Assembly (NCBI GenBank): GCA_963422465.1
Contig: OY730171.1
Location: 2,418,001 to 2,482,000 of the forward strand
Reading direction: 5' to 3'
Length of the DNA stretch: 64,000 bases
Source: Lichina pygmaea
Lineage: Eukaryota; Ascomycota; Lichinomycetes; Lichinales; Lichinaceae
The notes under the pieces were generated by a model that did no database searches, was not told the DNA's origin, and was given only the letters and a program-made list of their open reading frames with translations. The number at the start of each line of letters is the position of its first letter. The stretch's first letter is position 1. Position numbers and translations under genes: made by a program. Positions 25,079 through 60,515 of the stretch are shown one piece after another.

Positions 25079-27599
25079 TTTATTTATTTATTTTTTTATT
25101 TTTTTATTTTATTCTTACACTGATTTAGCTGTAGAGCCATGCAGAAATTCTAGGTACATGTTTGTTTCTCCAGAAAACCTTTGGAGGAATAAAAACTGGA
25201 GCTTGGGAGAGACTAGGGAAAATCTTGTGGAATATGCAGTAGCTAAGGAAATTTGTATATGTAGCTATTTGTTAAAACAAACAGTTGACTTGGTAGAGCT
25301 TAGAAAGAGAGTTGGTGGGCTAGGTTGAACTGGTCAAGTCTTTTCAAAGATATAAACCAGAAAAGAAGTTTAGGAAGTAGCTTGGAGGAGAATAAGATAG
25401 ATGGGAAATCTTGTAGAGGGAATTGGACTTGTTGTCTTTGGTTTGAAAATTTGTTACAGAAAAAAGTGATGTGTTGGGCTGTTTCTTCTCCAAAACCACA
25501 TGTGCATAGAGGGGAGTTAAAGTCTGGAACATTTGCTCTGAAAAGAAAACTGGCCAGTCCTATTCTTGCTGACAGAATTTGAAGAAATAGACTAGACTCA
25601 GCTTTTCTCAAATCTTTGAAGATATTGAGGTTTTTCTTCTGTGGCCTTCTGGTGAACATGTCCCAAATAGCAGAACAATTTCCTCTGCTTACCTGCCATC
25701 TGGCTTCCCATTCTTTGTGGAAAACGTCCTGTAGACTTTTCTTTGAGAAGTCTTGGTTAGTAGTTAGTTGTTCCAGCCAGACTGTTCTCCAGTTTAGAGA
25801 AATAGTTGTCAGAGACTTTGGTGTAGTTCTGAGAGAAGAAACATAGAGAGAAATTTGACTGTGTAGTTTGTGGAGAAGTGTAGAAGGAGAGTTGGGTAGT
25901 GTGTTTGAATAGAAAGATGAAAGAAAACATGCTGTTCTCAGCTTGAAGTATAAGTCTAGAGGGGGTAGAAATAGTTCTGATTCAAGTAGGAAAATAGGAG
26001 TGGCTTTAAAGACACCTCCTATAGTTCTTAAACATTTATTTTGGAAAGTAGATAATGAAATAATATTAGAGAGTTTCTTTTGGGGATTGAACCAGACTCC
26101 TACTGCATAACTAAGAAGAGATCTTAGTATAGCAGTGTAGACATGACGTGCTGTTAGGACTGGTAGTCCCCAAGTAGAGTAGGTTGTTCTGGATAAAGCT
26201 GAGAAATATTTGGAGGCTTTCTGTGACATGATTTTTTGGTGTTTTTTCCAGACAAGTTTTGAGTCAAAGTAAAGTCCCAAGATGCGCACTTCTTCTTTTG
26301 GTTGAAGTACCACTTCTCCAAGTCTTAGACTGAGCTGAAGATTGTCTCTTCTTCTTCTAGAAAAATGGAGAAGTTCATACTTTTCAGGTGCAAACTTCAT
26401 ACCATGTTTTCTTGCCCAGTCCTGACATTTGGAATGTGTAGACTTCAACTTGAGAAGGTTGCTTTTCAAGGAGGAGGAGAATGCAAGAAGATTAGTGTCA
26501 TCTGCAAAACCAAGTGCTGAAACTTCTTTCTCGGGGGTGTGTACAGTATTGTGCAGTTCTGAGATATAGAAAAGAAATAGAATAGGAGAGAAAGGTGATC
26601 CTTGAGGGACTCCACAGTATATAGGGAACTGGGGGGATTCTGAGTCATCAAACACCAGAGAGGTAGTGTGTGAAGTAGTGAAGGAAAAGATCCAGGATAC
26701 AAACCACTTAGGAATCATTCTCTTAATCAGGATCTTTCTGAGAACTTCTGGCAAGACTCTGTCATAGGCTCCAGAGATGTCTAGAGAGAGAAGACTAGCA
26801 ACCATTCCTTCTTTCCAGATCTTTTCTACCTGGGAGGTCAGAAGAAAAAGTGCTGATTCTGTTGATCTTCCTTTTCTGAATCCCATCTGGATTTCTGGCA
26901 AGAGATTTTCTTTCTCAGCTAGTTCACTTAGTCTTGCAGCTGCAATAGCTTCCATTAGCTTCCCAATTGTATTCTGGAGAGCTATAGGGCGCCATGCTTT
27001 TGCTTGACAGTAGGATCCCTTGCCAGGTTTCCTTAGGCAGATTGTCTTGGCTGACTTGTACCTGTCTGGAAAGTATTCCAGTCTCCAGCAAGCCTCCAAA
27101 ACCTTAGCAATTCTTTTGTTGAAAGGGTCTCCCAGTGCTCTTAGAAATCCATTTGGTAGAGTATCTTGGCCTGGTGCTGAGAGAGGTTTTTTCTTCTTTA
27201 GAACCTCTTGTACTTCTTCCTTGGAGACTTCTTGGGATAGTTGCCATTCCTGGGTTTCTTCTGGCAGGTCCTGTTCCTCTGGCTCTGGCTGTAGGGGAAG
27301 AGGGAAGAATTGAGTCCTGAAAGCTTCTGTTTTCTCTTCAAAAGACTTTGCCAGCTGTCCTTGTTGTCCTATAAGTTCTGGGACTATTGGTAGGTCAGGA
27401 ACTTTGCCGGCTTTTTCTTTTCCCTATTTGGCAATTCTCCAGTAGTCCTGGGTTTCTGCTAGCTGGTGGAGATGTGTTCTGAATGTCTTTCTTTTGGCTT
27501 GTCTGATCAGACTCTTTTTCTTTTTAGTTATCTCCTCTAGTCTGGTGGTTTCCTCTTGGCCTTGGAGTACTTTTCTTCTTACTTTTCTTTCCTCTTGGA
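25079..27599 (-). mobile_element. LINE2: Tad-type non-LTR retrotransposon, 5'-truncated
   Basis: A reverse-oriented Tad-clade LINE inserted in the protease region of gypsy B. It is truncated at the 5' end, so it lacks ORF1 and the endonuclease. The remaining ORF2 frame runs from 27599 to 25300 with a single stop (TAG at 27426-27424, at the Trp of a KWGK motif kept in LINE1). It shows LPNGFLRALGD, GFRKGRSTESALFLLTSQ, YCGVPQGSPFSPILFLFY, GFADDTNLLAF and a complete C-terminal knuckle (CTCGFGEETAQHITFFC). The 3' tail is the A-rich complement of 25079-25120. It is the best preserved reverse transcriptase here. Confidence 0.93.
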
Positions 27600-27612: not shown

Positions 27613-28701
27613 ACAAGGAAGAAACAAGCACTTACTGTCCAATTGCTGGTCTGGAGACAGATAGCCAACATGGAGATCTCTTTCATGTTCTTGGGCATGA
27701 CGATAACCAAGGACTACTTGTTTTCTGACTCCGGAGTAGTCTCAACAGTGGCAGACTTGGTGGTGGTTGTGGTGGTGGTAACAACAGGCATGCTTTTCAC
27801 TGGACAGAAGGTTGAGACATGACCTTGGTTCCCACAGTAGAAGCAGAGGCTTTTGCTTCAGCGATCTTCTTGCTCTTCTGGTGTCAGCTTAGAGCGGCTG
27901 AGATCTATGGTAAGACTTGGTGGCTGTGGTGTGAAGGCTGGCTTGATGAACCCTGGACGCAGAACTGAAGCTCCTGACTGTGGAACTGAGGCTTGGGTGG
28001 GAGATGCTTGACGTGGACAGCGAGAGTTGGCAGAAGTGGCACGCAACTGGTTGTCCTGCAGCTGGCATTCCTTAACAAGCTTCTGATAGCTGATGTCCTT
28101 GAGGTTGATGCTGACAAGCTGCTTGGCAAGCTCTTCAGAGACAGCACATTGAAGATGGCACTTCAAGGCCTTGTTGTTGAAGCCTGTGCGTGGAGCATAC
28201 TGATTGAACTCTGTGAAGAACTCGGCAAAGGAATGGTTGGCCTGACACAAGGTGATGAGCTTCCTCTGAGCTAGGAACTCTGGGTCTGGGTCGGAGAAGG
28301 TGTTCCGGAGGTCTTGGATGATGTTGTGCCAGTCAATGTACTGGCCAGCCGTGATCTTAGCTGAGATGTAGGACTGCGCAGTGCCAGTCGTGCGTGAAAA
28401 GACGTACGCAATCTGTGATGTTTCTGTGGGGTACCAGTCAGTGTTGAGTGTCATCTTGAGTGACAGTGATATGATGAAGCTCTCAAGCTTCTCATGCGTG
28501 ATTTCCGTGTTTCCTCTATCGCCACTGAAGATCTCTGGGTCAGCAGTACGTTCAGACTTGGACTTGGGAGTGGTGTTGGTAGCTTGAATTTACATGAACT
28601 CTGCAAACATGTTGCGAAGGAACTTGTTATTTCCAGCAACTGGCATGGCTTGGTCTGGTTGTTGAGACATGACAAGGACATGAACATGGCTTGGTGAAGT
28701 G

Positions 28702-30373: not shown

Positions 30374-32111
30374 ATGGAGTACCTCAATCTGCACCCGTTC
30401 GTGCGCTCGACCGTGGTCGACAAAGCCTTGTGTGTCATGGTCGGCTCGGCCTTGGGCGATGCAGTGGGGCTTTACACCGGTACTGTGTCCAACACCCAGT
30501 ACAACCACTAGTCACCGTACGATTTCTCTCTGGTTTCAGAGGGGAAGCGGCCGTTGAGCTGACGGTAGACTTTCTCCATGGGCCCCGTCTGCAGAATTCC
30601 TCCCCAAGGAGTTGGCTCGCAAAGCCTACCCCGACGGCAACTTCTCCCTACTTCCTCCTCTCACCGAGTTTCATGGTGATACTCATCGAGGTAAATCCCC
30701 GTGGAGATTCTTCTTGGAACGACGTACAGTACTGTCACGTGTGCTGGACCGTCTTGGAGTTGATGTGCTCGTCCATTGGTGCGATTCATTTGTGGGGGTT
30801 CCTGGTTCATCGTCCTTTTGGGTTCTTGCTGGCCAAGTTTCCGTTGAAAGTCTTACATGTGCTGAGGAGCCGTTCTCAACAGACAAGTCCGAAGCGGTAC
30901 GGGCTCGCACTCCTCCCTTACGGCACTGCACGTCTGTCGATGAACATCTCATTGATTTCCGCAAAAGGGAGACTGGACAGATGATACCGACCACGCTCTC
31001 CTCATTCTTCTGTCGTACCTCCGTCACGATGGTGACCTCCTGCCGAAAGACTTCGCAGAGCGTCTGGCCAGCTGGTGCGAGCAAGGCCTACGCTGTCTCG
31101 ACCGGCTGCCGCTTGGCGTTGGAAACACCGTGAAATCGGTGAGCTGAGCCGAGATACTATAGGAGGGTCTCTACTTTGGCGGCTAGGTCGACTGAGAGGC
31201 TGGCTCAGGTCATACTTGACCCTGTGTTTCGAACCTCGCCGGCGGGCGCCGCCCGTGCTCTTTGGGAAGAACGGCAGAGAAATCTCGCGGCCAATGGGTC
31301 CTTGATGCGGACACATCCTCTGGGGATCATGTGTCTGCCTCTGTCGCGTGATGCGAGGTATGATACCGCAGCGGCGTACTCGCAGATCACCCACTTCGAC
31401 CCCCGCTGTACCCTCGCTTGCAGTATCTCTACCTCTTTGATATCAGGCATCCTCGCAGGGGAGGTGCAAGACGGAGCGCACGTTGACAGCGTCATCGAAG
31501 ACGCGTATGTGTGGGTCAGCAAGCAGAACCCGGACGAAGACGGGTTCCGTCTCGACCGCGGAGAGTTTGAGCGACACGTCTACGCCGCGAAGCTCGAGTC
31601 CCTCGAGCTCGACGACGCGCTGAAGACGGGATACGTCTACAAAGCGCTCGGCGCGGCCGTGTTCTGCCTACGACGGGCCGTGCGTGAGCCACGCGGCCAG
31701 ACGGAGACGTTCGAGCGCGTTATCGCCGATCTCATCATGCAGGGCGGCGACGCGGACACCAACGCGTGTTGCGCCGGCGCGCTTGTCGGCGCGTGGGTCG
31801 GTCACGCCAGCCTCCCGGCGCACTGGCGCGACGGGCTGCGGCACGGCCGGTGGCTCGAAGACAAGACCGCAGCACTGTGCCGCGTCCTCGGCGTCGTCGT
31901 GGCAGACCGCTACGACGGCGAGCACGATCCAGACAACCTCACGGACGGCGAGAGAGGATTGCTGCCCAGAGACGTGCTCGATAAGAGAGAGCAGGACCTG
32001 CTCCACAGCATCCTCACTAAGAAGGCCGATAGAGAAGGGGTTGAGAAACGGAGCAGGGAAGAGAAGAAGAGGAAGGAGGCTGGTCTGCTTGGCCTCGGCC
32101 GCCTCTTCTGA
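30374..32111 (+). CDS. ADP-ribosylglycohydrolase (DraG/ARH family)
   Basis: Predicted to remove ADP-ribose from proteins or related small molecules. Exons 30374-30479, 30595-30690, 30972-31138 and 31209-32111 give 423 residues; each junction is GT-AG and keeps the family alignment. Family marks are ALGDAVGLYTE near the N-terminus, the metal-binding WTDDTDHALLIL (Thr-Asp-Asp), NGSLMRTHPLGI, the aromatic-rich DPRCTLACSISTSLI and the second metal site GGDADTNACCAGALVGAW. The tail is Lys/Arg-rich and ends LGRLF. The 281-bp second intron is long for this region and its acceptor is the least certain. It is the first gene beyond the transposon nest, and a LINE fragment lies 83 bp past its stop. Substrate unknown. 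Confidence 0.88.
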
Positions 32112-40686: not shown

Positions 40687-41713
40687 TCAACGACCAGCGA
40701 TGCAGATATCCATCTCATCGACGGAGATTGAGCGAGTCACGATATGTTCGTCGTCTGTCGTGCCAACGTCAAAGTAGTAGATTTCAGTAACACCAAGGTC
40801 TCTGAGAAATCCAACGAGCCGGTCGTAATTCTGGCCGACTTGATCGGTGCCATGGCTATCGTCGGATAGCGTCAAGCGTCCCCCAAGCCCCATAAACACC
40901 TGTAGCAGCGTGAACAATCGTCCGTCACTCGCTGACCGCCTGTCTTTCGGAACGGGCTCGTACCTCAACAATGCTGCGATTCGGGTATGGGTCGCGCATC
41001 CCTTTTCTCAGCGCCGCAGAGTTGATCTCCATGACGCCACCGTACTGGACGATGAACTCGAGATTCCTCACGATCCTGTCCCAGACTCGGGGAAAGTCCC
41101 GAAAGTCGACATCGGGGTCATCGCTCCGGAGCCGGATGAGATCAAAGTGGCCCACGATGGGGGGCTTCAGTCTTCGCAGCATGTCCAGCTGTGCATCAAA
41201 GTACGCGACGAAGGCATCCTCATCCGTTCCGCCCACCGTGTGCCGTGCCTTTTCGTACAGAGGACGGTCGAAGTCTATGGCGATGGTGTTCAGGTGGTGG
41301 ACGGACCCGACGAAGAGATCAAAGGCGTACTTCCGTCGTAGGTCCTGGATCAACGCCTCCGAGGAAGGTCTGATCCAGTCCGATTCAAATCCTATCAGAA
41401 TCTTTATCCGTGGTGCGTATACTTCTTTGAGCCTCCGCGCCTCGTGATAGTACGCGTCGAACGTAGTTGCCAGATCCGCCGGGGTTTGAGACGCATCAAC
41501 CTAGCCACTTCGATCAGACGTGCATCCGGCGAGCCTCGATATGGCGCCGCACACCTCTTCTGGGTACAGATCCACACTCTCATCTCGAGGCATATGCTCC
41601 GTCAACGCAAAGACACGGAATCCTTGCCGCACAGCCGTCTCTATCATATCTTCCAGTGTGTTTTTGGCATGCAGGCAGAACTGCCCAGAGTGACTATGAT
41701 GAGAGAACGGCAT
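40687..41713 (-). CDS. HIS2: Histidinol-phosphatase (PHP family)
   Basis: Hydrolyses L-histidinol phosphate to histidinol in histidine synthesis (EC 3.1.3.15). Exons 41555-41713, 40964-41500 and 40687-40899 give 302 residues, with introns of 54 and 64 bp. PHP metal-site motifs are clear: MPFSHHSHSG at the N-terminus, ALTEHMPRDE, FESDWI, FVGSVHHLN, VGHFDLIRL, MEINSAALRKG and the terminal LSDDSHGTDQVGQNY. The start at MPFSHHSHSG matches the family; an in-frame upstream Met (41812) is judged non-coding. It is cytosolic. Downstream (left) is a long intergenic region; upstream is cnxABC in the same orientation, 280 bp away. Confidence 0.93.
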
Positions 41714-41993
41714 GCTTCCAGGTGTTCGACTGGTGAGACAGGTGTAGTTCCCACAGACCCCGACCGTGCTCAACTCGTGTCCAGCAACATTAACTCGAGG
41801 GATATCTTGCAATGACTAAGCGATCGAGGAGATTTGCCTGGCAACAGATTTCCTCATGAGAGTGTGATCTCTCTTTGTACAATATCGTCTGTCCATAGCT
41901 GTGATCAGGGCTAATCTTGGTGCAGACGTCTGCTTGTATCACAAGCAAGAGTACTCCGTACAGGGTATCCGCAGAGCGCATAGACAGGAAGAT

Positions 41994-44214
41994 CTATGCT
42001 AGAGCGGTCTCTTCTTCAATTTCAAGATCCGCATCCCAGGTTCCGCTCCTGCCTCCAGCCTTGTATATGACTCGCACGCCTTCAATTGTGATGGCGCGAT
42101 CAACAGCCTTACACATGTCGAAAATGGTCAGAGCAGCGGCCGAGACTGCGGTCAGGGCCTCCATCTCAACACCAGTCTTGCCAGCGCACTCGACCTCTGA
42201 CTGGATCCTGATCCGGCCGCCGTCCGTAGATCCAGCCGGTGGAGCCAACCGCGGGAGCGGCTCGAGGTCAACCTTGACTGACGAGAGGGATATGGCGTGA
42301 CATAGTGGAATCCACTCGGGCGTGCGTTTCGCAGCCATTATTCCGGCGATGCGCGACACTGACAGAACGTCACCCTTTTTCATCGTGTTGGCACGTATGA
42401 GCTCTAGAACGGTTGCATTCGAGAAGACGACGTAGCCAACAGCCTTCGCTACTCGATGCGTGTTTGGTTTGCTCGCTATTGAAACCACATGTGCGGCCCC
42501 AGAAGAGGTCAGGTGCGTCAGTTTGGGCAGAGGTTTCGAGCTTGATGATGTCGACGTTGAATAGTGACACGGCTGCGGCATTGTGTGAGAACCTCGAATG
42601 CCGCCAGCGAACGAGTGATAGCCAATGAGCTGTTGTTTATCATAGCGTCTTCGACGATACTGTTCCGGCGAGACGCATTTTCGTGACAATGACCAATCTG
42701 TTTGATCCAAGTACAGTCAGCATCCGCACTGGCACTGGCCTCCATAGAAGCTGCAACCATCCGTGATGCTTTACCTGGCCATATGCAAGGTAGGAAAATC
42801 TCAACATAGATCAATGATGATACAGCCGTGGCTGATCCTACCCACCGATCAATATCATAGGCCGGTTTTTCATTCCCACGAGGGCATCCATGCCGGCATG
42901 TTTCGCTTTCTTGCGCTGCACAGCCAAGCCGATCAAACCCAAGAGCTTTTTCTCTGTTGATGGATCCGGATGTGTTCCACCATGCGACGAGGACGACTGG
43001 GCTGCTTCGGTGGCCTTTAGAGCCTGTAGGTCGTCTTCGTCCAGCGGCCTTCCACGAGTCTCTTTCCGCACGACATCTCGAAGGGAGACTTCGGCATTCC
43101 CAAAGAGACAAACCTTTAGGTTCCCATCGCTGGTCACTCGGAGTCGGTTGCAGGTGCCACAGAAGTTGTGCGTCATGCTGGTAATGAAGCCCATGCGCCC
43201 CACAAATCCGGGGACACGATACGTCTTGCTGGTGTTGTTGGGGTGGTCTTGGACCCTCTCCAGATCCGGAAACCTTTCGGAGATCAAATTTAGCATCTCC
43301 TGGTAGCCGAGCATCTTCCCACGCTGCCACTTGTTGCCGTCAAAGGGCATATACTCGATGAACCGGACCTCGAGATCACGCTCTCTGCCCAGCTCCACGA
43401 ACGGAATGATCTCTCGATCGTTGAGACCGCGCATGACGACGACATTGATCTTGAGCGTGATTGGTACCCCTGATGACTTCAGCGCGAGAATACGATCCAG
43501 CGAACGCATAACCGCCTCGAACCCATCACGCCTGGTCATCAGTTGAAACTGAAAGGGGTCGAGCGTATCAAGGCTAAGATTGATGCCGGTAAGCCCTGCA
43601 TCTACCATGCTTTCCAGCTTGCGATGTAGAGCCAAGCCGTTGGTCGTAATGCACAGTTCTTTCAAGCCTTCACTCCGGAGAGAGCCAATAGAGCGCATCA
43701 TCGATACAAGGTCAGGACGGACAGTAGGTTCGCCACCGGTCAGCCGAATCTTGGTGACGCCTTGACGGACAAAGAGAGACGAAAGATAGTATATCTCCGA
43801 CGCCGTCAAGATATGCGACGGTGGTGATAAGGGAACCCCTTCTGTCGTGTCACCCAATGCGATTAGCGGACAGTCTCAACAGTCGTTCGTGATATTGCTT
43901 CGTCTGGAGCGCATACCTGCCGGCATGCAGTAGAGACAGCGGAGATTGCATCGCTCGGTGACACTGATCCGAAGGTAGTCATGTTGGCGGCCAAAGCGAT
44001 CCTGCAAGACGTCCGAAGTTCGGCGCTCCGTGTGATCGGTGATACTGTTCCGGGCCATCGACCGCTCCGGTGAGTCCGCTGCAGGCTCGGCAGCTGTTGC
44101 GACGGCGCCTGAACAAGCGGTACGTCGTCCTACTGCTGGTACGACCTCGCGAGACGGCCGGTGGAGCCAACGGTTCGCTAACGACATTGATGTTGAAGCA
44201 GAGCGTCGAGCCAT
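41994..44214 (-). CDS. cnxABC: Molybdenum cofactor step 1: MoaA-MoaC fusion (cnxABC type)
   Basis: Converts GTP to cyclic pyranopterin monophosphate. Exon 1 43917-44214 and exon 2 42842-43841 encode MoaA: an Arg/Ser-rich N-terminus (probable mitochondrial leader), radical-SAM cluster [20 protein letters not shown] and a second cluster CGTCNRLRV with the later Cys in LKVC. MoaA ends NRPMILIGG and is followed in the genome by TAG at 42838-42840. The MoaC part (to 41994) has [26 protein letters not shown] and [20 protein letters not shown]. The likely intron from 42841 to about 42541 (donor GG|GTAGGA) would join the two as 614 residues; this acceptor is a best guess. Unspliced, MoaA would be 433 residues with a C-terminal Gly-Gly. 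Divergent from ADE5,7. Confidence 0.9.
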
Positions 44215-44857
44215 CTTGAAGATTCAGTCGTACAGGTCCTTTGTCACAACCAAATTGGTATGAGGAGCCACGGGATCCGGGAGGCAATTGGTGATATCCT
44301 GTCTCCATCGTGGTTGGAATGATGAATAATCGGTAACCTCCGACGGTGAGCGCGACGGATGCGGTACTCTAGGGATGAGTTAGTCATCCACTTCGTCGAG
44401 GAGCGGTACGGTAATACGTAGATACTCGCGTGTCCAAAATATTAATGAAATTAATGAAACGCTACCCTAAGATGGTCATGTATCACAGAACTAATGAGAA
44501 TGAGCTTGTCTCTAATTACCCCTCCATTATCGATAAGGAATTTGGAGGGGTCACTCAAGTAAGAACAGAAAATTCCCGGGTGAGGGTAGCATTACGTACT
44601 GGTATGTCCTCAGCGAGACAAGGTACGAGTTGAACCTCCCTGCGGGCGGCGTGGGCTCTGGCCCAGGCAGGGGTCTAAAGTACGAAACGCGGCCAGGCAC
44701 GCCAATATTTTGCACAACTGGGTCTAGCCCAGGAACTGTCCGAAGTAAGAAATCTGCCTACGAGGTTGAGGAGGAAGCGGTGGACCACAACATTCTGTAC
44801 ATCGAACCTCGCAACTGAATCCTAACCCGTCTTCAGCACTCCGACAGTGTTGCTACA
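44215..44857. other. Divergent promoter of cnxABC and ADE5,7
   Basis: About 640 bp between two start codons. A 67-codon ORF (44430-44633) has no recognisable feature. A local A/T-rich patch (ATATTAATGAAATTAATGAA, about 44440) stands out from the GC-rich surroundings. Confidence 0.5.
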
Positions 44858-47480
44858 ATGGGGAAGCTTCGCCTCCTAGTAATCGGCAATGGCGGTCGTG
44901 AACATGCCTTGGCATGGAAATTGAGCGCGTCGCCAATGGTAGAGCGCATCTTTGTGCTTCCAGGCAATGGAGGCACAGCCAGCTTGTCAGCCTCCGTGAC
45001 GAACATCGATACCATCAAGACCGACGATTACCCAGCATTGGTCGCTTTCGCAAAAGAACATGACATCAACTTGGTCATTCCCGGGCCCGAGGCGCCGTTG
45101 GTGGACGGAATCGAGGCTTTTTTCCGCGCCGGTACGAGACACTGACTACCTTTATTCGACCAAGTTGGGCTCATGCATGTGTAGCTGGCATCCGTTGCTT
45201 TGGACCATCGAAAGAGGCCGCGGCCATGGAGGGCTCGAAGACTTTTGCAAAGGATTTCATGCAGAGACACAACATTCCAACAGCGCAGTACAGGACCTTC
45301 AATGATCACCAGCAAGCAAAAGAATATGTGGACTCTGTTGATCACGGTATTGTTCTGAAGGCCAGTGGCTTGGCGGCTGGAAAAGGGGTCATCATACCCA
45401 ATACCAAGGAGGAAACTTATGCCGCACTGGAGGAAATTATGTTGAAGAAAACATTTGGTGCCGCAGGTGATGAGATCGTGATAGAAGAATACCTCGAGGG
45501 TGATGAACTCAGCATCCTTGCGTTCAGCGACGGCTATACCGTCAAGTCTCTGCCTGCGGCACAAGATCACAAGAGGATCTATGACGGCGATCAGGGGCCC
45601 AATACGGGCGGCATGGGATGCTATGCACCTACAAGAATTGCCTCTCAATCTTTGCTTCAACAGATTCATACAGAGATACTGCAGCCTACGATTGATGGGA
45701 TGCGGAAGGAAAGTCGGTCTTCATCATCCAGTTTCTTTCTCCGTATGAGCTGAATTTGTGCCAGGATGTCCTTTCGTCGGCATGCTCTTCACCGGTCTCA
45801 TGGTCACCCGTAATGGACCAATGGTCTTGGAGTACAACGTGCGATTCGGGGATCCAGAGACTCAGACAGTGCTTCCGTTGCTCGGTGATGAAGCCGATTT
45901 GGCAGAGGTCATGCTTGCATGCACTGGAGGCTGGTTGGATGCTCTCACGCTTCAGGTCAGGAGCCAGTTTGCAGCAACAGTAGTCGTAGCCTCAGGCGGC
46001 TACCCAGGAGGATATGCGAAGGGTGTAGAGATGAGCTTGAGCGCGGTCCCGCACGGTACGCACCTTGCTTTGCGCTTCACTAGGTGCTTGCAGCTACGCT
46101 AATCTTGCGACAGGTGTGATGGTTTTCCACGCGGGAACTATCGTTCGAGACTCTGCCCTGTTAACATCAGGAGGCCGGGTGTTAGCAGCAACCGGCGTCG
46201 CTGATAGTCTCGAAGAGGCTGTTCGGAGAGCCTACGAGGGAGTGGAATCAATCAAGTTCAAAGATATGCATTACAGAAAGGACATCGCACACAGGCAAGC
46301 CGTATTGAGGTTCTTTATCCCGACCAACAACTCATTTCTCCGTAGGGCTTTTAAACCCTCTCAGACCCGGGACAAGTCTCTGACCTATGCGGCTGCCGGT
46401 GTGTCGATTGACGCCGGAAACAAGCTTGTCAGAAAGATCAAGAACGCCGTACGATCGACAAAGAGAAGCGGAGCAGACTCCGAGATTGGAGGGTTCGGCG
46501 GTGTTTTTGACCTCTCCGCGGCTGGGTTCGGCAATGGTCCTTTGCTGATCGGGGCAATTGACGGCGTTGGAACGAAGCTGGATATTGCCCAGGCTCTAAG
46601 AAAGCACGACACCCTCGGTTAGTTGACGTCTGCGCTGCGCGCCTCAAATACTGACTGGGGTGTAGGAATCGACTTGGTGGCGATGAATGTCAACGACCTG
46701 GTGGTGCAAGGGGCCGAACCGCTCTTCTTCTTGGACTGCTATTCATGCGGGAAGCTCAACGTCGACAAAGCCGCTGCTTTTGTTGAAGGCGTTGCCGAGG
46801 GTTGTCGACGTGCTGGCTGTGCACTCATCGGAGGCGAAACTGCCGAGATGCCGGGCGTCTACTCCGACGACGGTTATGACGTGGTTGGTGCCGCTGTTGG
46901 TGCGGTGCGGGGGAAACGGGTACTCCCTCACACCGACGCGATGACAGAAGGAGATGTGCTCCTCGCCCTTAAATCTAGCGGCGTCCACTCCAACGGCTTC
47001 TCGCTCGTGCGGAGGGTCATCCGGGAGCAGGGCTTGGAATATGGCGATCCGGCGCCCTGGGACACGCAAAACAGCATCGGTCTATCCCTTCTGACGCCGA
47101 CGCGGATCTACGTCAAGCCGCTCCTCGAGCTCGTCCGGAGAGATCTCGTGCTTGGGATGTCGCACATCACGGGAGGCGGTCTGCTCGAGAACATCCCGCG
47201 AATGCTGCCCAGCCACCTCGCCGCGAAAGTGGACGTTGGCGCCCGGCATCTCCCGGCAGTATTCGCGTGGCTCAAGAAGGCAGGCGGTCTCGACGCCGTG
47301 GAAGTGGCCCGGACGTTCAATGCCGGCGTGGGAATGGTCTTGGTCGTGCCGGAGGCGAAAGCGAAAGACGCCGTCGCCGAGCTCGAGCGAGCAGGGGAGA
47401 GCGTATACCGCATCGGCAGGCTCGTTGAGAGGAAGGACGGTCCGGCATGCATCCTGCACAACCTGGCTTCGTGGTCGTGA
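44858..47480 (+). CDS. ADE5,7: Bifunctional GAR synthetase / AIR synthetase (ADE5,7)
   Basis: Catalyses two steps of purine synthesis: phosphoribosylamine-glycine ligase (PurD) and phosphoribosylformylglycinamidine cyclo-ligase (PurM). Exons 44858-45131, 45185-45712, 45765-46055, 46114-46294, 46346-46617 and 46666-47480 give 786 residues, close to the yeast enzyme. PurD marks: [59 protein letters not shown]. PurM marks: [92 protein letters not shown]. Intron 4 (46295-46345) starts GCAAGC, a GC-AG intron; the reading IAHR-AFKP requires it. Introns are 48-58 bp. Cytosolic. Confidence 0.95.
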
Positions 47481-48526: not shown

Positions 48527-48651
48527 TGCCAACAGAGGGACTCGAACCCTCGATCGCCGCATCTCAGTAGCCTTCGCATCACAATACACAGCCTCTGTGT
48601 ACCACGCTCCTCTTCTACGAGTGCGATGCCTTACCCCTGGGCCATGCCGGC
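48527..48651 (-). tRNA. tRNA-Thr (anticodon CGU) with a 53-nt intron
   Basis: Exon 1 is 48616-48651, intron 48563-48615, exon 2 48527-48562. The acceptor stem GCCGGCA pairs with TGTTGGC (two G-U); the D stem is GCC/GGC; the anticodon stem TCGCA pairs with TGCGG; the loop after splicing is C-T-CGT-A-A; the variable region is CGATC; the T arm GAGGG-TTCGAGT-CCCTC is perfect; discriminator A. A box (TGGCCCAGGGG) and B box (GGTTCGAGTCC) are present, and TTTTTT follows the 3' end as a Pol III stop. The intron sits after base 37 and contains CTAC, able to pair with GTAG at the anticodon. It also has a TACACAG-AGG-CTGTGTA hairpin and a TGCGA that mimics the anticodon stem. Confidence 0.87.
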
Positions 48652-49328: not shown

Positions 49329-52196
49329 CTAGAAGATGCCGATGTCTTGGAAATTGTTGGCGATCAAGGCGACTTGTTTCAGACCCGTCATGAAGGGGCC
49401 CAAGGTGCGGTCGAGTTCGTCGCGCATCTCCTGGTAGTCGGTTTCGGGATCGCTGAGAGCGGTCACGGTGCTGCTGGACCCGAACCGCCAGTAGTCGAAG
49501 GGCCCAGTCGGTTTGCCAATGTGCTGGGCCTGCTTGATTTTATCTTTCCCGCCAGGGCTGTCGAGCATATGCTCCCCCTTGGGTTGCCCTCCTATGTTTC
49601 CCCAGCTCCAGGTTGTTGTATTGCAGATCGAACTGGCCGTGACACCGGCTGAAGCTCGGGCTCGAGGTGGAAACGAGTAAGCCGGAGTCGATTCCGGCGC
49701 TGGGGTTGGCTCAGGAGCTGAAGTTGGCTCGGGAGCTAGAGTCGATTCCGGGGCTGAAGTTGGATCTGCAACTGGAGCTGAAGCCGGAGTGGGAGCGACG
49801 GGCCAGTCACGACACTGGTCGTGACTCCATTTCGTAGCGGTGCGTTGCAGGACCGAAAAGCCGCCGCGGCCGCTGATGCACAGATACCCCATCACGCCAG
49901 AGTAGATGCCCCGACGCTTCCCGCCTTCCAGATTCCGCAAAATCTCGCATGATCGCTTCTTCGGCGCCCCGGTCGATGTGGCGGGCGGCAAAGACGCACC
50001 CAGAAGCCTGTAGCCCTGTTTGTATTGCCGCATCGAGTCATTTTCGGCTTGAGTGCATCCCATGGGTTCCGACAGCTCCGTTGGCTTGATGTAGTTGCCT
50101 TCGATGACACTGGAGAGATGCAAGCCCTCGGGAGACACGTCCAGGTGCCCTAGCTGTGGAACAAAAACGGCTCCAGTTCCTAGCACGCCAAGCATGTCGT
50201 GCCGGATCACGTCAACGACCGTCACCTGCTTGGCTCTTTCCTTGATCTCCCCGCGCCATCTCTTCAGCTCGTCCTCGGTCGGGACTAGCTGAGCACCGAG
50301 CGGCCCCTTGGTCGATTGCATCTGGAACCCCGAGGGCCCAATTTCCAGGAATCGCTCGGCGCTGAGGCTCATTATCGTCGTCGAGCCCACATTGTAGAAG
50401 GCGCCGAACGGGGACTCGTTGCGTTGTCGCATGTGCCGATACATGTGCCATGCGTGACTGCGCCATCTCGGTCTCGGAAGCCGCATTGTGGCCTGGCTGG
50501 TGAGGCAGAGCCCGTGTGACTGGCCATCCAGGATGAGCTCCCGGCACTGCTCGACTCGTCGTTTGTATACGCCACCGTTGATTGTCGACAGCTGCATCCC
50601 AACCGGGTGTTCGAGGACGTCCATGTCTCCGTCTCTGTACGAGGCCTTGAATCTCCTGTCGATTATCGATGGCTCTTCCGACCACTCGTCGAACGAGCTG
50701 AACCCTATCGGACCGTCCGCCAGTGTCTCCGTGATCCCATGAATCCAGACAGAGTCGTTCGGTGCCAAGCTCTGAACATAGGCCATCTGCAGATCGTGAT
50801 CGAGCACGACGCTGCGCTCGATGAACGCGAACGAGATATCCGGCTGGCTCTGTCCACGCTCGCCGAAGCTTATGACCGGCGGTGGATCGACCCCGATGGA
50901 GCTCAGGCCCATCTCGTGGGACACGTATCCCGCAAGACCACCCCAGAAGGGTGAATCTTCACGGCCGTAAAAGTTCCGCAGCCCGCTCATGTACCTGCAG
51001 AGAAATTCCCAGAAGTCATCGTTGAAATTAGAGAGACACCAGGTATCGACATTCACGCTGCCGTGAAGGTGTCTCACGATCTTGACCTCCTGAGCCCCGG
51101 TAGAATACTCGATTGTCGTATGGTCTTCCGGCACGACGAATCCGACGATGGTGTATCTGCTGTTATGCTCCGATCCAGCTGTTTCGAGGACGACAGCATC
51201 ACAGCCGTCGTAGCCCACTTGAACGCATTTGAGTATCTCCTCGCTGTGCCAAGGCCAGTGCAACGTCTCCGTCACGACCTCCCTTGGGCCACGACTGTCT
51301 CTCCACTGACGCGCCAGTAAGAGGTTCATCATGTGTCGCTCGAAAGGCAGCTCGAACACCAAGTCGCGCTCTCGTCGATCGAGCCAGCGCTGTAGATACA
51401 TCACGATGCGATGGGGAGCCCTCGACGAAGCCCAGTACCAAGCGCCGTATCGTTTTTGATGCCAGCGAGCCACTTCCGCCCACCAATTGCTGATGACCTT
51501 CCGGCTCTCCTTGTCGGAAGCGGCCGAATCCACATGGAACTGTATGCCCCAGAATGGCTTCTCGACATGCCTCACGGCCATCAGGATGGCGTCGTCCTTG
51601 TGTTCGGCGACGACCCACGCCAACGGTTGAAGGTTGGGAATGGCAGCTCTCGGCTTCCATAGCAGCCTCGCGTCCCATAGCATGTACTCTTCCTTGTAGG
51701 CCGGATGGTCGGGTGGGTCGAGCTTCACCTCAAGGGAGTGGTAGCGCGTAACTTTGATGCCACTCAAACCCCGAAAGATCGACTCTTCGCCGTGGACGAC
51801 CTGCGACACGATACCATGCTTCGCGTCCTTCAGACGTTGAATCGTGGCGCCGAAGGTGTATGCCAAGCTCTGGAAGCCCAGAGAGATGCCGAGGGCCGGT
51901 CGGACATCCTCCTCGGACAGGTTCCAGAGTTCGTTCATGATGCCAACGTCCGCCGGGTTCGTGGGGCTCCCGGGACCAGGGCCAGCAATGACGGCATCAA
52001 AGTCTCTGACCATACGGGCAAATTCAACGGCGGACATGCCGGGGTTGATCTTCAGAACATAGACTTTGGCGGAGAGTAGTTTCTCGAGCATGTGAATGAT
52101 GTTGTTCGCAAAGGAATCGTACGCATCGATGTAGAGCACTCTTGGGTGGTTGCACTTGGCAACCAGCTTGGTGAGGATCTTGCATTCTTCGGCCAT
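49329..52196 (-). CDS. PABA-synthase-like fused protein with degenerate active sites
   Basis: A single-exon ORF of 955 residues with the layout of fungal p-aminobenzoate synthase: glutamine amidotransferase (about 17-250) fused to aminodeoxychorismate synthase. Fold marks remain: LYIDAYDSFANNI, VIAGPGPGSPTNP, GFQSLAYTFGA, FWGGLAGYVSHEMGL, TGAPKKRSCEILRNLEGGKR. Key residues do not. The nucleophile Cys of GICLGxQ is Ser105 (codon TCT, 51882-51884), the triad HPES is HVDS (His221, Asp223), PIKGT is STKGP, SLPPGSMTG is SLPPATSTG, and the terminal GAGGAVT is GSSSTVT. A Pro/Ala/Glu/Ser repeat insertion (APEPTSAPEPTPAPES, about residues 790-840) splits the catalytic end. The uninterrupted 2.9 kb frame argues for retained function, but not necessarily PABA synthesis. 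Confidence 0.85.
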   Translation of the reverse strand: MAEECKILTKLVAKCNHPRVLYIDAYDSFANNIIHMLEKLLSAKVYVLKINPGMSAVEFARMVRDFDAVIAGPGPGSPTNPADVGIMNELWNLSEEDVRPALGISLGFQSLAYTFGATIQRLKDAKHGIVSQVVHGEESIFRGLSGIKVTRYHSLEVKLDPPDHPAYKEEYMLWDARLLWKPRAAIPNLQPLAWVVAEHKDDAILMAVRHVEKPFWGIQFHVDSAASDKESRKVISNWWAEVARWHQKRYGAWYWASSRAPHRIVMYLQRWLDRRERDLVFELPFERHMMNLLLARQWRDSRGPREVVTETLHWPWHSEEILKCVQVGYDGCDAVVLETAGSEHNSRYTIVGFVVPEDHTTIEYSTGAQEVKIVRHLHGSVNVDTWCLSNFNDDFWEFLCRYMSGLRNFYGREDSPFWGGLAGYVSHEMGLSSIGVDPPPVISFGERGQSQPDISFAFIERSVVLDHDLQMAYVQSLAPNDSVWIHGITETLADGPIGFSSFDEWSEEPSIIDRRFKASYRDGDMDVLEHPVGMQLSTINGGVYKRRVEQCRELILDGQSHGLCLTSQATMRLPRPRWRSHAWHMYRHMRQRNESPFGAFYNVGSTTIMSLSAERFLEIGPSGFQMQSTKGPLGAQLVPTEDELKRWRGEIKERAKQVTVVDVIRHDMLGVLGTGAVFVPQLGHLDVSPEGLHLSSVIEGNYIKPTELSEPMGCTQAENDSMRQYKQGYRLLGASLPPATSTGAPKKRSCEILRNLEGGKRRGIYSGVMGYLCISGRGGFSVLQRTATKWSHDQCRDWPVAPTPASAPVADPTSAPESTLAPEPTSAPEPTPAPESTPAYSFPPRARASAGVTASSICNTTTWSWGNIGGQPKGEHMLDSPGGKDKIKQAQHIGKPTGPFDYWRFGSSSTVTALSDPETDYQEMRDELDRTLGPFMTGLKQVALIANNFQDIGIF

Positions 52197-53473
52197 GGCA
52201 GGAGCGATGAGGTGGTGTTGGCGATGGTGATTGTGGTATCGCGGGATGAACCCTGAGGTGACATTGAATATCCAAGCTGGCCGGAGATAACATGTCCATT
52301 TTGAGCCGCTTCCAACTGCTCGCTGAGATATTGGCCATGTAATCGCAAGCTGTCAGATATAGGCTAGCGTGACTGTAGATGTCGGAGAAGGTCAAGGCGG
52401 CAAGTGCCCGAAGTTCCGAGCTCGCCGCAGGAGCGCGGACGGTATTTATCCGGCACGTCCGGGTGACAGAAGCTTCTGTGAAACTCTAGAAGGCAAGAAG
52501 GACCGTATCAGCAGAGATCTTTGTCGGCTATTGCCGGTAGTGTCCACGATATCTCGTTGACCTTTCGAGGAATCTGACTTGTCAGATTCACCAGGCTTGA
52601 TGTCCGTCGAAGGGTCAGGCTGCTTGTCCACGTGCGTTGTACGGAAAAGCTTCTTGATTGTGTCGCTATCATTATGTCATCAGGTACATACGTACCGGTA
52701 ATTAGTCAGGTTCGGTACCGTATATAGGTACCGTACGGGGCTAATTAGGCCGATGCTGTTTTCGCGACGTCGTTTGGCGCTCCAAAGTCCGTCCACGCAA
52801 AACCTGCCGTGGCTGACCAGCCACGAGACTACTCATCATCATATGGCTTGCTATTTTGTCTCAGGTCGATGGATCCGACGTCTTGAAATGGCCGATTCGT
52901 GCGATCAAGCTGCCAATTTCGAGGTCATAGCGAATTGATCCCACACAGACTGGTGCCAGCGTCGTTCAGCATACCTTAGCTTTTTTATTTGCCCAACAGC
53001 TGGAATCGCTCGCACACCTTGCCAATGATTTCTCTTTCCTTTCTTTTCTACTGGTAGCATGTCTAATGCTATCGATCTCATGACAATGGTGATGTCCCTG
53101 CTTGCTCTGAAGGGTTTGTGCGAAATGGGGCCATCATGTTGAAGTGGGAGTACAGCCCTGGTACCAGATACCCATGAAGAGCGGTGGGAAACGTTTCCGG
53201 AGGGGGTTTCAACACCCATCAAAAAGCCAGCAGTCCCCAATGACGGGGGATATAGCTTCAGTGACTGGCAGTGTGAATACATTGTGGCAATTCATGGCTA
53301 TATCTGTGATCTTCCCCCTCAAGGATGCGATTGCTCGTCTTCCACCTGCCGAGAACCACTGCAAAAGTACACGCCAGTCGTCTCTTGGCTCGAAATTGCT
53401 GGGCATCTCGACCGTAAGCCGTCCCCCTTGTGCTTTGAGCAGAAGACTAACAGCATGTTCAGATCCTGCCACC
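52197..53473. other. Intergenic region
   Basis: No gene recognised upstream of the PABA-synthase-like ORF. A GTAC-rich block (52680-52738, with GGTACCGTATATAGGTACCG) lies in it. Confidence 0.45.
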
Positions 53474-53695: not shown

Positions 53696-54197
53696 CACAA
53701 GCAAAGGTACTTCTTCTGTCCTGCTGGATGCCGGGAAAAGTCACTCCATCGCTGGCAGAAGCAAGAATGGGACTCTTTCTATGCCTTTGAAGAACGGCTA
53801 CATGGAGAAGATGTCAACACAAGGGCTTTGTGGGCGATTTAGGCAAGGTGCAATCTATTAGGGAGATGGTTGTTGAATTTAAAACCGGGTATACAACCGA
53901 TACCCGTTCTCACCCCGAGGACTTCAAGCCACGTTGATGGTGAGCCAAAAGTCCCTAGAGCGTAGTGCCTGTGTTTACCCCTTGAAGCCCCTATTTGTGG
54001 TCTAACCTTAGTCAGCCGCCACTCAACCGCTGCCTAGCGTGACAGGATTCATTACTTTTGACACAATCTCATCAACCACGCCGGCGAGAGCGTGTCTTCG
54101 CGCATCAAGCTGGTCCCTGATCAGCCCTACCAGTGCCTACAAGGACAGTCAACCGCGGCGGAACGTTGAAAGCGCACCCAATCGTAGGGCCGTCACC
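53696..54197. other. Intergenic region and CWC27 5' region
   Basis: No gene recognised. The frame of CWC27 is open upstream to 54039, but that extension lacks family similarity. Confidence 0.45.
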
Positions 54198-55937
54198 ATG
54201 AGCACCTCCTACAACCTCGAGCCTCAACCGACCGCCAAGGTCTTACTGCAGACCACTTCCGGTGATGTCGTTCTCGAGCTTTTCGCCAAGCAAACACCAC
54301 TGACTTCACGCAACTTTGTGCAACTATGTCTCGACGGCTACTATGTTGGTACCCTCTTCCACCGTCTGCTCCCGGGTTTCATCATTCAAGGAGGAGATCC
54401 GACGGGGACAGGCGAGGGAGGGGAATCCATCTACGACGATGGCCGGCCCTTCGCGGACGAATTTCACAGCCGGCTGAAGTTCAACCGGCGCGGGCTGCTG
54501 GGAATGGCCAACGGCGGCGGGAAAGATGACAACACGAGCCAGTTCTTCCTGACCCTGGCCAAGGCGGAAGAGCTCAACGGCAAGAACACCATGTTTGGCA
54601 GGGTCGAGGGCGATACGATCTACAACCTCGTGAAGATGGGCGAGGCCGAGCTCGCAGCAGACCAAGGCAGCGAGAGGCCGCTGTATCCGACGAAAATCAC
54701 GGGGACCGAGGTGCTGGTCAATCCCTTCGAGGACATGGTCAAGCGGGAGCTTTCTCGGCGAGCAGCGCCGGCCGATGTCGAAAGAGGCACAGCCCAAGGG
54801 TCAAAGAAGAGGAAGCCGGCCAAGAAGACGGGGAAGACGCTATTGAGCTTTGCTGGCGATGAAGGAGAGGATGAGGCTCCGCTACCCGTTGCAAAGAAAG
54901 CCAAGTTCAACACCAAGCTGGTCGATGCAAGCGCAAACGACGTGTCTGCACACAACGGACTTGACGCCGTTGAACAAAAGGCCGCTGCAGTGCCAGGCAA
55001 GGAGAGCCCGTCCAGCTCGTCCCTAGCAGCGTCAAAGGACCATCAGGCGCAGCGGCGATCCGAGCCCGCACGCGCTCGGAGGTCTGCGCCAGCAAAGGCA
55101 GTGTCCTCCTCGCCATCCGCCAGTCCCGAACCCGAGCCCGTCGCCGCCGTGTCGTCGCTGCTGGAGAAGACCAACGCTCAGATTGCGGATCTGAAAGCCT
55201 CGATGAGGCGCACGGTCGAGACGGGACCCAGAGAAGCGCCAAGCAGAAAGAAAACTGCGCTCGAGCAGATGATCCCGGAGACGTCGATCCGCGGGCGGAG
55301 ACGGAGACATGGCGCTGCAGGACGGGCGGGCCCGAGCAACGGTCCGACAGGCCTGGAAGATGACGACAGACGCGCTCTCGACCTGCTGAACGCGTTCCGG
55401 GCAAAACTCGACAACGCTCCGGCCGAGCAGCCGACGAGGCAGAAGGAGACGAAACTTGGGGGCGACGTGCCTCCTCGGACCGGTACCGTCGGCAAAGCGC
55501 ACGCCACCAAAGCCGAGGGAAGCAAAGACGAGGACGAAGAAGCCCGTCTCTGCGACCTGCACTTTATATCAAACTGCCAATCGTGCCAGTCCTGGGACAG
55601 GCGTCAGGCGTCTCGCAGCCGGCGACGGCATCGATCGCAGAAGCGCTCCACCTCGCACTCTCCCGCGCGGACGCATTCGTCGCGAGGCTCTATCACCTCC
55701 TCCGGAGCCGACGACGGCGACGGACACAGCGACAACGACACGGGCTGGATGTCGCACGCGCTGACGTTCGAGAAGGATCGGCTGGGCAAGGACCTGACCT
55801 GGCGCAAGCAGAACCAGGACGAGCTGGTCGTCATCGATCCGCGCGAGAAGGGCAAAGACATCATGGAGATGAGAAGGGGGGAGAAGAAGAAGAGGCCGAC
55901 GGAAGCTGCGGGCGGAGCACGGAGCACAGGGAGGTAG
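54198..55937 (+). CDS. CWC27: Peptidyl-prolyl isomerase CWC27 (spliceosomal cyclophilin)
   Basis: A cyclophilin associated with the spliceosome. Single exon, 579 residues. The start MSTSYNLEPQPTAKVLLQTT matches the family; an in-frame Met at 54039 is judged too far upstream. The cyclophilin domain covers about 10-175 with FHRLLPGFIIQGGDPTG (the catalytic Arg is kept), GMANGGGKDDNTSQFFLTL and ELNGKNTMFGRV. A long charged, disordered region follows (nuclear-localisation-like KKRKPAKKTGK), with coiled ALDLLNAFRAKL. The terminal CDLHFISNCQSCQSW, WMSHALTFEKDRLGKDLTW and VIDPREKGKDIMEMRRGEKK block is characteristic of CWC27. Nuclear. It converges on the bZIP gene. Confidence 0.94.
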   Translation: MSTSYNLEPQPTAKVLLQTTSGDVVLELFAKQTPLTSRNFVQLCLDGYYVGTLFHRLLPGFIIQGGDPTGTGEGGESIYDDGRPFADEFHSRLKFNRRGLLGMANGGGKDDNTSQFFLTLAKAEELNGKNTMFGRVEGDTIYNLVKMGEAELAADQGSERPLYPTKITGTEVLVNPFEDMVKRELSRRAAPADVERGTAQGSKKRKPAKKTGKTLLSFAGDEGEDEAPLPVAKKAKFNTKLVDASANDVSAHNGLDAVEQKAAAVPGKESPSSSSLAASKDHQAQRRSEPARARRSAPAKAVSSSPSASPEPEPVAAVSSLLEKTNAQIADLKASMRRTVETGPREAPSRKKTALEQMIPETSIRGRRRRHGAAGRAGPSNGPTGLEDDDRRALDLLNAFRAKLDNAPAEQPTRQKETKLGGDVPPRTGTVGKAHATKAEGSKDEDEEARLCDLHFISNCQSCQSWDRRQASRSRRRHRSQKRSTSHSPARTHSSRGSITSSGADDGDGHSDNDTGWMSHALTFEKDRLGKDLTWRKQNQDELVVIDPREKGKDIMEMRRGEKKKRPTEAAGGARSTGR

Positions 55938-57226: not shown

Positions 57227-58202
57227 TCATAACTCCATCTTCTTGCCCGAGACGTTACCGCTGCCGGCTGCCCTGCCACCGCCGACGCTGTCCTTCGTCG
57301 TCGCCATCTTCGTCGTCGCCGTCGTCGTCTGCGGCGTGCTCCGTTTCCGCCAGAGCTCCGTCACGTCGTCGTCCTTGCCATCCTTCTCGGTGATGAGGTT
57401 CTTGAGCCACTTGTTCTCCGTCTCGAGCTGGCCGATGCGCGCCTCGAGCTGGCTGACCTTGTCCGTCATCTCCTTGGCCGTCCGCTCCAGCGTCTGCTCG
57501 CGCTGCTTCTTCTTGATCCTGAAGCGCGCGCTGGCGGCGGTGTTGCGCCGCCGTTTGTCTTCCTCGGCCGCCAGCCGCGCCGCTCCGTCAGGCGACCCCG
57601 GCCCCGATCGCTCCTCGGGGCCGAAGGCGGCAGCGTCAGCCTTGCGTTTGTCTCCCGTCTGCGGCGGCGTGACCGATCCTTGGGCCACCGTCATCGGCGT
57701 CGCCGCGGCGGCCGTCATCGCGGCAGGCGACGACATGGCCGGCATGACGTATGCGAAATGTGGGACTTGTACGGGCGGAGGTGCGAGAGGCACCGAGCCG
57801 GGCTCGGCCAAGAGCGTCTGGAAGCTCGTGATGTCCGTCAGACGAAAGTCCTCTGGACCGAGGCGCCGTGCCCGTCAGTATAGATGCTTCTCGTCGCGAC
57901 GTCGAGGCTCGATGCCCACCTCTCAGAAGGTCCAAGCCGGTGCATCCGGGCTTGGGCGGCGCCAGCGAGTCCACCCCGCTCGCTGGCCGGTCGTCCGCCT
58001 CCGAGCCAGCCGCGGCCGGGTTCACGGTCTCGTCGAGGTCGAAGTCGAAGAAGTGGGTGTTGGTGAACATGGCCAGGTCATCCTCCTCGAAGGCGAGACC
58101 TTCGAGCGGCTGAGCGGCGACGTCCAGAGCCGAGGACTCCGCGGTCGGGTCGGCAGCGAAAGCGGTGACGAGGGACGACGGATCTCCGTCAAAATTCGAC
58201 AT
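57227..58202 (-). CDS. bZIP transcription factor, CYS3/MetR-like sulfur regulator
   Basis: Exons 57920-58202 and 57852-57227 (intron 67 bp) give 302 residues. The start MSNFDGDPSSLV resembles CYS-3/MetR. An acidic region (FEEDDLAMFTNTHFFDFDLD, about 43-62) is a likely activation domain. The bZIP lies near residues 205-265: basic region RRRNTAASARFRIKKKQREQ, then leucine heptads (VSQLEARIGQLETENKWLKN). The NTAASARFRxKKKxREQ signature is that of the CYS3/MetR/ATF4 group, which activates sulfur-assimilation genes when sulfur is limiting. The Ala-rich linker and Gly-rich tail are unremarkable. The precise role (CYS3 or a paralog) cannot be decided from sequence alone. Confidence 0.85.
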
Positions 58203-59333: not shown

Positions 59334-60515
59334 TCACAGAGCCGGCAACGGCCTGTGCTTGCCTAGCCGGTCCTGATACGCCGACCACGCCTCGCGCCGG
59401 TACCGCTCGGCCTCCATCTTCCGGTCCTTGGCGTTCAAGATGCCCCGTCCGACGATGATTATGTCTGAACCTCGCTCCTGCACCACCCGTCGCGGCGCAT
59501 TGTACTGTTGGCCCAGGCCGTCCCCCCGCACCTGCTCCGGATCCGAAGCCGACTCCGGTGGGAGGGACACGCCTGGCGTCAGCGTGATGAAGTTGTCGTC
59601 GACGTCCTCGTTCAGGGACCGCTGTGCGATGAAGCCGAGCACGAAATCTCGATGTTCGCGCGCCAAGGCCACGCATTGCTCGGTATATGCACGCGTCAGC
59701 AGGTTCCCCTTCGAGCTCATCTCGGCCAGCAGCAGCAACGCTCTTTGGGTCGGATGTCCGCCGCCGCCGTGGGGGCTGTAGTCGCTGCCATCCTTGAGAG
59801 CGCTTGGTGAAGGGCGTCTGTCCGCCGGCATGGGCTCGCTGCGGGTCTCCACCGTGACTACGCTGAGGATCTTCCCGCCGGCATCGCCCCCAGGTATTCG
59901 AGACTCGCCGGGCCCGTGGCTCACTCCGTTCGCATCGCCAGGCTCTGCCGCGATGTGGGTCGTCGTGGCAGGGCTGAAACGAGGCTCGATCTCCGCGGCG
60001 GCAGACTGCAGGGCCCGAACGATGTCTGGACCCGGAAAGACGTGGGCGTTGACCAACGAGGCCCACTGTGCGATGCGCAGCGGGCCTGCCGTGTACTGCC
60101 TCTGCACCGTGCCTGGGCCCCTCTCAGCGTCGGGTCGATGCCTCCAACGGATCTGTGTCTAGGACGTGTGGTCGAGGGGGGAGCAGCTACTTCCAATGTC
60201 CCCAAACTTGCGGTCCTCGAAGAGCAGGAATTTCTCTCGTCGCGCAATGTCCTTCAAGCTCTGCATCGTGGCCTCGCTAAAATCGTCGATCGTGTCGGCG
60301 TGGGTCTTGAGGACGACGATACTGCTTCCGAGCTCGTCCGCAAGGGCGAGAAGCTCGGCCGTCGTCGTCACGTCCGCGCTCACGCAGAGGTTGGACTTCT
60401 TCGAGTCCATCAGGCGGAAGAGGAAGGCTGCGACGGGGGCCGTCGAAGGTAGAGTGGCCCGAGCGAGAAAGGACCGTCGGAGCGTATGATGAGCTCCACT
60501 CGCATCTTCGGCCAT
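59334..60515 (-). CDS. pyrG: Orotidine 5'-phosphate decarboxylase
   Basis: The last step of UMP synthesis. Exons 60191-60515 and 59334-60112 (intron 78 bp, donor GTAGCT) give 367 residues. Conserved: NLCVSADVTTTAELL, IVVLKTHADTIDDF, FLLFEDRKFGDIGSTV (catalytic Lys/Asp), QYTAGPLRIAQWA, LLLLAEMSSKGNLLT, FVLGFIAQRS, FITLTPGVSLP, DGLGQQYNAPRRVV, GSDIIIVGRGI. An inserted stretch of about 70 residues (from PRFSPATTTHIAAEPG to SALKDGSDYSPHGG) precedes LLLLAEM. An insertion at this place is typical of Sordariomycete pyr-4-type enzymes. The start is taken at MAEDASGAHHTLRRSF; Met codons just upstream (60518, 60542) cannot be excluded. The orthologue is pyr-4/pyrG/URA3. Confidence 0.94.

Follow-up and report, generated by a model that had tools for sequence, protein, structure and literature searches.

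We studied a gene of Lichina pygmaea in a window of 64,000 nucleotides (the whole stretch of DNA analysed), in which MoaA and MoaC domains lie at one locus and on the same strand, A before B. The gene is read from the minus strand and is a fungal orthologue of the cnxABC / nit-7 / MOCS1 type, which serves cPMP synthesis, the initial step towards the molybdenum cofactor. Its MoaA protein scored 344.3 bits against TIGR02666 moaA (cut-off 284.05) and carried the Pfam domains Radical_SAM and Mob_synth_C, and the moaC part matched Pfam MoaC (E = 2.5e-50) and TIGR00581 (176.4 bits, cut-off 141.5). Exon 1 of moaA has in-frame ATGs at 44214, 44187, 44058 and 43926. The join that removes intron 1 was picked among six listed joins because it rebuilt the sequence CxxxCxxC-MPAEGVP. 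The MoaA N-terminus is Arg/Ser-rich and, by charge count only (7 R/K and 2 D/E in the first 45 aa), it could be a mitochondrial presequence.

Table 1 Features of the MoaA-MoaC gene (positions in the window)
Feature	Position	Strand	Remarks
moaA exon 1	43917..44214	-	start taken at the first of four in-frame ATGs
Intron 1	43842..43916	-	75 nt, CAG/GTATGC ... CGACAG, within the radical-SAM domain
moaA exon 2	42838..43841	-	unspliced reading
GGT GGG TAG	42838..42846	-	double glycine and stop; donor overlaps
Candidate switch intron	42698..42845	-	148 nt, G/GTGGGT ... GCTGAC ... AAACAG; frame-restoring join
Candidate alternative intron	42698..42774	-	77 nt, CAG/GTAAAG; donor past the stop, acceptor 42698
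Linker of predicted fusion	42582..42697	-	39 residues before Met 42581; contains RRRR
moaC part	41994..42581	-	first in-frame ATG to TAG, MoaC domain

The moaA frame closes with Gly-Gly-stop (...ATG ATA TTG ATC GGT GGG TAG GAT), the two glycine codons occupying 42846-42844 and 42843-42841 and the TAG 42840-42838. The moaC frame follows downstream in another phase and is open from 42716 to the TAG at 41996-41994. An earlier note on this DNA had described the two frames and the ATC GGT GGG TAG GAT end, and had proposed that a retained intron yields a MoaA ending in Ile-Gly-Gly; both points agreed with our reading, in which the unspliced product has 433 aa and ends in IGG.

Of 86 GT..AG joins tried, whose donors lay anywhere from the moaA stop to 120 nt ahead of it, 16 stayed open to the moaC stop. 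One was the join 42845 to 42698 (ATCG/GTGGGT ... AAACAG/ATTG), whose donor (ATC G/GT GGG TAG) lies 4 nt upstream of the one proposed in the earlier note. The 148 nt that it excises contain bases 2 and 3 of the first glycine codon, the whole second one and the stop, so that the moaC frame is restored and both glycines and the stop are gone. The product is a 665-aa fusion, ...NRPMILI-D-WSLSRK.... A branch-like GCTGAC, with its A at 42717, stands 19 nt ahead of the last base of this intron. Two related joins were rejected: 42841 to 42698 is out of frame and leads into a dead-end tail and a stop, and 42845 to 42775 alone falls outside the moaC frame, giving 516 aa that end in NLCPN.

Among the 110 GT sites in the interval 44400-42400, donor 42845 had the lowest U1 duplex energy, followed by 42841, 42774 and the donor of intron 1, in a calculation where the duplex register was not forced and sites 42845 and 42841 overlap. 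Both of these sites match the donor consensus at 5 of 9 positions, and branch/acceptor pairs of the same type turned up in 1017 of 2000 mononucleotide shuffles; sequence alone would therefore not decide the junction. We preferred donor 42845 because the published intron of Neurospora crassa nit-7 starts at the same base of the glycine codon (see below). The true donor is thus most likely 42845 and the true acceptor most likely 42698. Since six neighbouring introns (45132-45184, 45713-45764, 46056-46113, 41554-41501, 40963-40900 and 43916-43842), chosen by eye among listed joins for the protein that they rebuilt, measure 52-75 nt, a length of 148 nt looks long for this neighbourhood and 77 nt ordinary.

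In a literature search on the fungal switch, made on open-access texts, the one experimental paper among the titles listed was that on N. crassa nit-7 (PMC7232280). There the intron spans 1460-1696; the NIT-7A construct comprises 1-1467 (1-1464 in the eGFP fusion), the NIT-7AB construct 1-1459 joined to 1697-2664 (PMC7232280). From these construct numbers we derived positions 1459-1464 for the nit-7 glycine codons, 1465-1467 for the stop, and a donor starting at base 2 of the first glycine codon. As the variant that blocks the splice form is 1461T>C (PMC7232280), this first codon would be GGT and the donor G/GTGGNT. By the construct numbers, the N. crassa intron thus starts at base 2 of the first glycine codon (GGT), and so, by its sequence, does the predicted intron of the window; this positional match, like the frames, domains and junction arithmetic of the window gene, was obtained directly here. 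Both fungi have one gene with MoaA followed by MoaC, a switch intron, predicted in the window, that holds Gly-Gly and the stop, and a further donor site past the stop that shares the acceptor. They differ in that the switch intron has 237 nt and is single in N. crassa, whereas in the window it has 148 nt and moaA carries an additional intron of 75 nt; in the second donor, which lies at +9 in N. crassa and 71 nt downstream in the window, not at the corresponding base; and in the stretch before the MoaC Met, which by arithmetic from the constructs has 136 residues in N. crassa (NIT-7B Met623) and 39 in the window.

The unspliced nit-7 mRNA gives NIT-7A and the spliced one NIT-7AB, both being needed for growth; the unspliced transcript increases on nitrate, and a donor mutant showed no significant growth on nitrate (PMC7232280). 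The A domain of NIT-7AB, described as inactive in its fused state, is lost after import, which frees NIT-7B, and NIT-7B made alone did not localise to mitochondria (PMC7232280). When NIT-7B and NIT-7A were supplied separately, growth was not like the wild type (PMC7232280). The second nit-7 donor, past the stop, produces the variant 1469-1696, which is not essential (PMC7232280).

A corresponding mechanism can be proposed for the window gene. If intron 42845-42698 is retained, translation would stop at the TAG at 42840-42838 and give the 433-aa MoaA, a predicted GTP 3',8-cyclase whose C-terminal Gly-Gly is free. If the intron is removed, the split first glycine codon would become Asp (G+AT), Gly-Gly and the stop would be lost, and the 665-aa MoaA-MoaC fusion would result. 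Its A part should be inactive, as in N. crassa, and the MoaC part would be carried along by the shared presequence and released by cleavage later, also as in N. crassa. We infer the presence of both mRNAs, the mitochondrial import, the cleavage and the nitrate control. The whole reading, in which intron 42845-42698 decides between MoaA-Gly-Gly and the fusion, appears highly probable; a two-protein switch at this locus is probably real and is known in kind, its mechanism having been published for N. crassa nit-7 (PMC7232280). The N. crassa arrangement is thus suggested in a fungus with an extra intron, a shorter switch intron and a shorter linker. The exact junction is now predicted for the window gene and can be checked, and gene prediction that imposes a single model on the locus would lose either MoaA-Gly-Gly or MoaC.

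The earlier note had likewise proposed a single splice choice between MoaA-Gly-Gly and a MoaA-MoaC fusion, within one gene that needs both products. The need for both agrees with N. crassa nit-7 (PMC7232280) and the choice was right in outline, with the junction probably wrong. That junction, 42841 to 42541, would keep Gly-Gly inside the fusion (ILIGG-SKPLPKL). It is one of the 16 of 86 joins that are open to the moaC stop, so its claim to keep the frame held, and its donor has the second-lowest U1 duplex energy among the 110 sites. Nevertheless, the junction itself found no support: its acceptor is AAG, the interval from 42717 to 42541 lacks a branch-like YTRAY match, its intron would measure 301 nt, and it starts unlike that of N. 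crassa nit-7, whose position matches 42845. Donor 42841 is accordingly probably wrong, and this junction seems extremely improbable to us. As the donor is most likely G/GTGGGT at 42845, neither glycine would remain in the predicted fusion, where one or both had been supposed to stay.

Two further readings were considered. The intron might always be removed, leaving one bifunctional protein and Gly-Gly as a relic, and the Aspergillus nidulans cnxABC product has indeed been read as one protein. Against this, Gly-Gly and the stop are intact in the window gene, all 80 bacterial MoaA proteins checked (see below) end in Gly-Gly, and for N. crassa the A domain is said to be inactive when fused, NIT-7A being required (PMC7232280); we regard such a constitutive fusion as very unlikely. 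Alternatively, MoaC might be translated by itself from the ATG at 42581, either through re-initiation or on a separate transcript; the fusion would then be unneeded. The context of this ATG, CACACAATGCC, is a favourable one in fungi. For A. nidulans cnxABC, the idea of a bicistronic transcript had been raised at one time, as PMC7232280 relates. A ribosome on the retained transcript would, however, meet seven ATGs between the MoaA stop and ATG 42581, and separate NIT-7B of N. crassa did not reach mitochondria and, together with NIT-7A, did not give wild-type-like growth (PMC7232280), which makes independent translation of MoaC very unlikely, too. The preferred reading remains the splice switch at 42845-42698.

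Within the splice switch, the second donor past the stop deserves separate consideration. Donor 42774 matches the consensus at 7 of 9 positions, the most among the 22 GT sites between 42960 and 42541 and as many as intron 1, and its U1 duplex of -8.3 kcal/mol is the third of 110. Its use with acceptor 42698 would remove 77 nt after the stop and keep the 433-aa MoaA-Gly-Gly with its IGG end. Because it shares acceptor 42698, splicing may take place in the MoaA-Gly-Gly mRNA as well. The switch could then be a competition between donors 42845 and 42774, which lie 71 nt from each other, for acceptor 42698 rather than a choice between retention and splicing; this suggestion, based on the consensus, is possible and rather unlikely. 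If true, every mRNA would be spliced and donor strength would set the MoaA : MoaC ratio. The AG/GT at 42775/42774 also divides the 148 nt into 71 and 77 nt, which may leave in two steps of ordinary size. Against such a two-step removal, the first 71-nt half has only the weak branch-like TTGAT (A at 42811), and 42774 is below 42845 by U1 energy. Spliceosomal twin introns (stwintrons) are nested or abutting introns that leave one after the other; in their common [D1,2] type the first base of the donor is separated from the rest.

An overlap of donor and stop proves nothing alone, as it is common in bacterial genes, which need no spliceosome. A GT occurs within GGN-GGN-stop in 30 of the 48 codon/stop combinations. 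As a control we kept 80 bacterial MoaA loci out of 333 relatives, mostly Bacteroidota and not a broad sample; all 80 proteins end in Gly-Gly (79 read directly, and L060 in its open frame). Among the 79, a GT was present within the last nine bases of 53 genes, and the nine bases were identical to those of the window gene (GGTGGGTAG) in 4. The overlap gains its weight from the experimentally tested, matching intron of N. crassa nit-7.

The region around the switch was also inspected for other signals. RNA structure around the donors gave z = -0.91, and 41 of 200 shuffles equalled or exceeded its stability, i.e., no special fold. Rfam on 41900-44400 at E <= 1 returned a single match, on the opposite strand and far under its gathering score, hence no molybdenum-cofactor riboswitch at that threshold. 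Codon usage in the linker gave no coding signal (-0.037 in the moaC frame vs 0.038 and -0.024 in the other two). The linker motif RRRRYDKQQ might, as a speculation, serve as a site for import or for cleavage of the fusion. The patterns searched for in viral contigs had no match.

The human gene MOCS1 offers a second parallel, which the earlier note had drawn and which agreed in outline with a review (PMC9607355): alternative splicing close to where the A part ends leads to MOCS1A or MOCS1AB, as proposed for the window gene. According to the same review (PMC9607355), MOCS1B is freed by cleavage, a step inferred for MoaC in the window, and an internal mitochondrial targeting motif is reported ahead of MOCS1B. 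Unlike the window gene, human MOCS1 has ten exons and relies on alternative splicing of exon 9 (PMC9607355). Aspergillus nidulans cnxABC is named as the nit-7 homologue in PMC7232280 and has both activities at a single locus, as in the window.

The divergent neighbour on the plus strand (44838-47480) is a GARS-AIRS purine-synthesis gene with the Pfam domains GARS_A, GARS_C, AIRS and AIRS_C and three short introns, picked among listed joins. Downstream, on the minus strand (40856-41815), lies a neighbour whose PHP domain is interrupted by introns and which by reading resembles histidinol-phosphatase. An intron-free 1007-aa frame at 49329-52352 (minus strand) carries GATase, Anth_synt_I_N and chorismate-binding domains, the last matched in two stretches, and a Pro/Ala/Glu repeat at the frame end; by reading it is p-aminobenzoate-synthase-like. 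At 48527-48651 (minus strand) there is a 125-nt tRNA match of 44.8 bits, over the Rfam gathering score and probably intron-bearing; ARAGORN lists none. Other domains in the window were ADP-ribosylglycohydrolase (31146-32111, plus strand), cyclophilin (54012-55934, plus strand), bZIP (57230-57874, minus strand), OMP decarboxylase (59337-60158, minus strand) and FTR1 iron permease (61516-61971, minus strand). The GC content was about 0.42-0.46 up to 28 kb vs 0.51-0.59 beyond, and the region 1-30000 was rich in retroelements, with reverse transcriptase frames at 10101-11894 (plus strand) and 25303-27423 (minus strand), an integrase at 5962-6606, an RNase H at 13604-14089 and a gag-like frame at 27861-28589.
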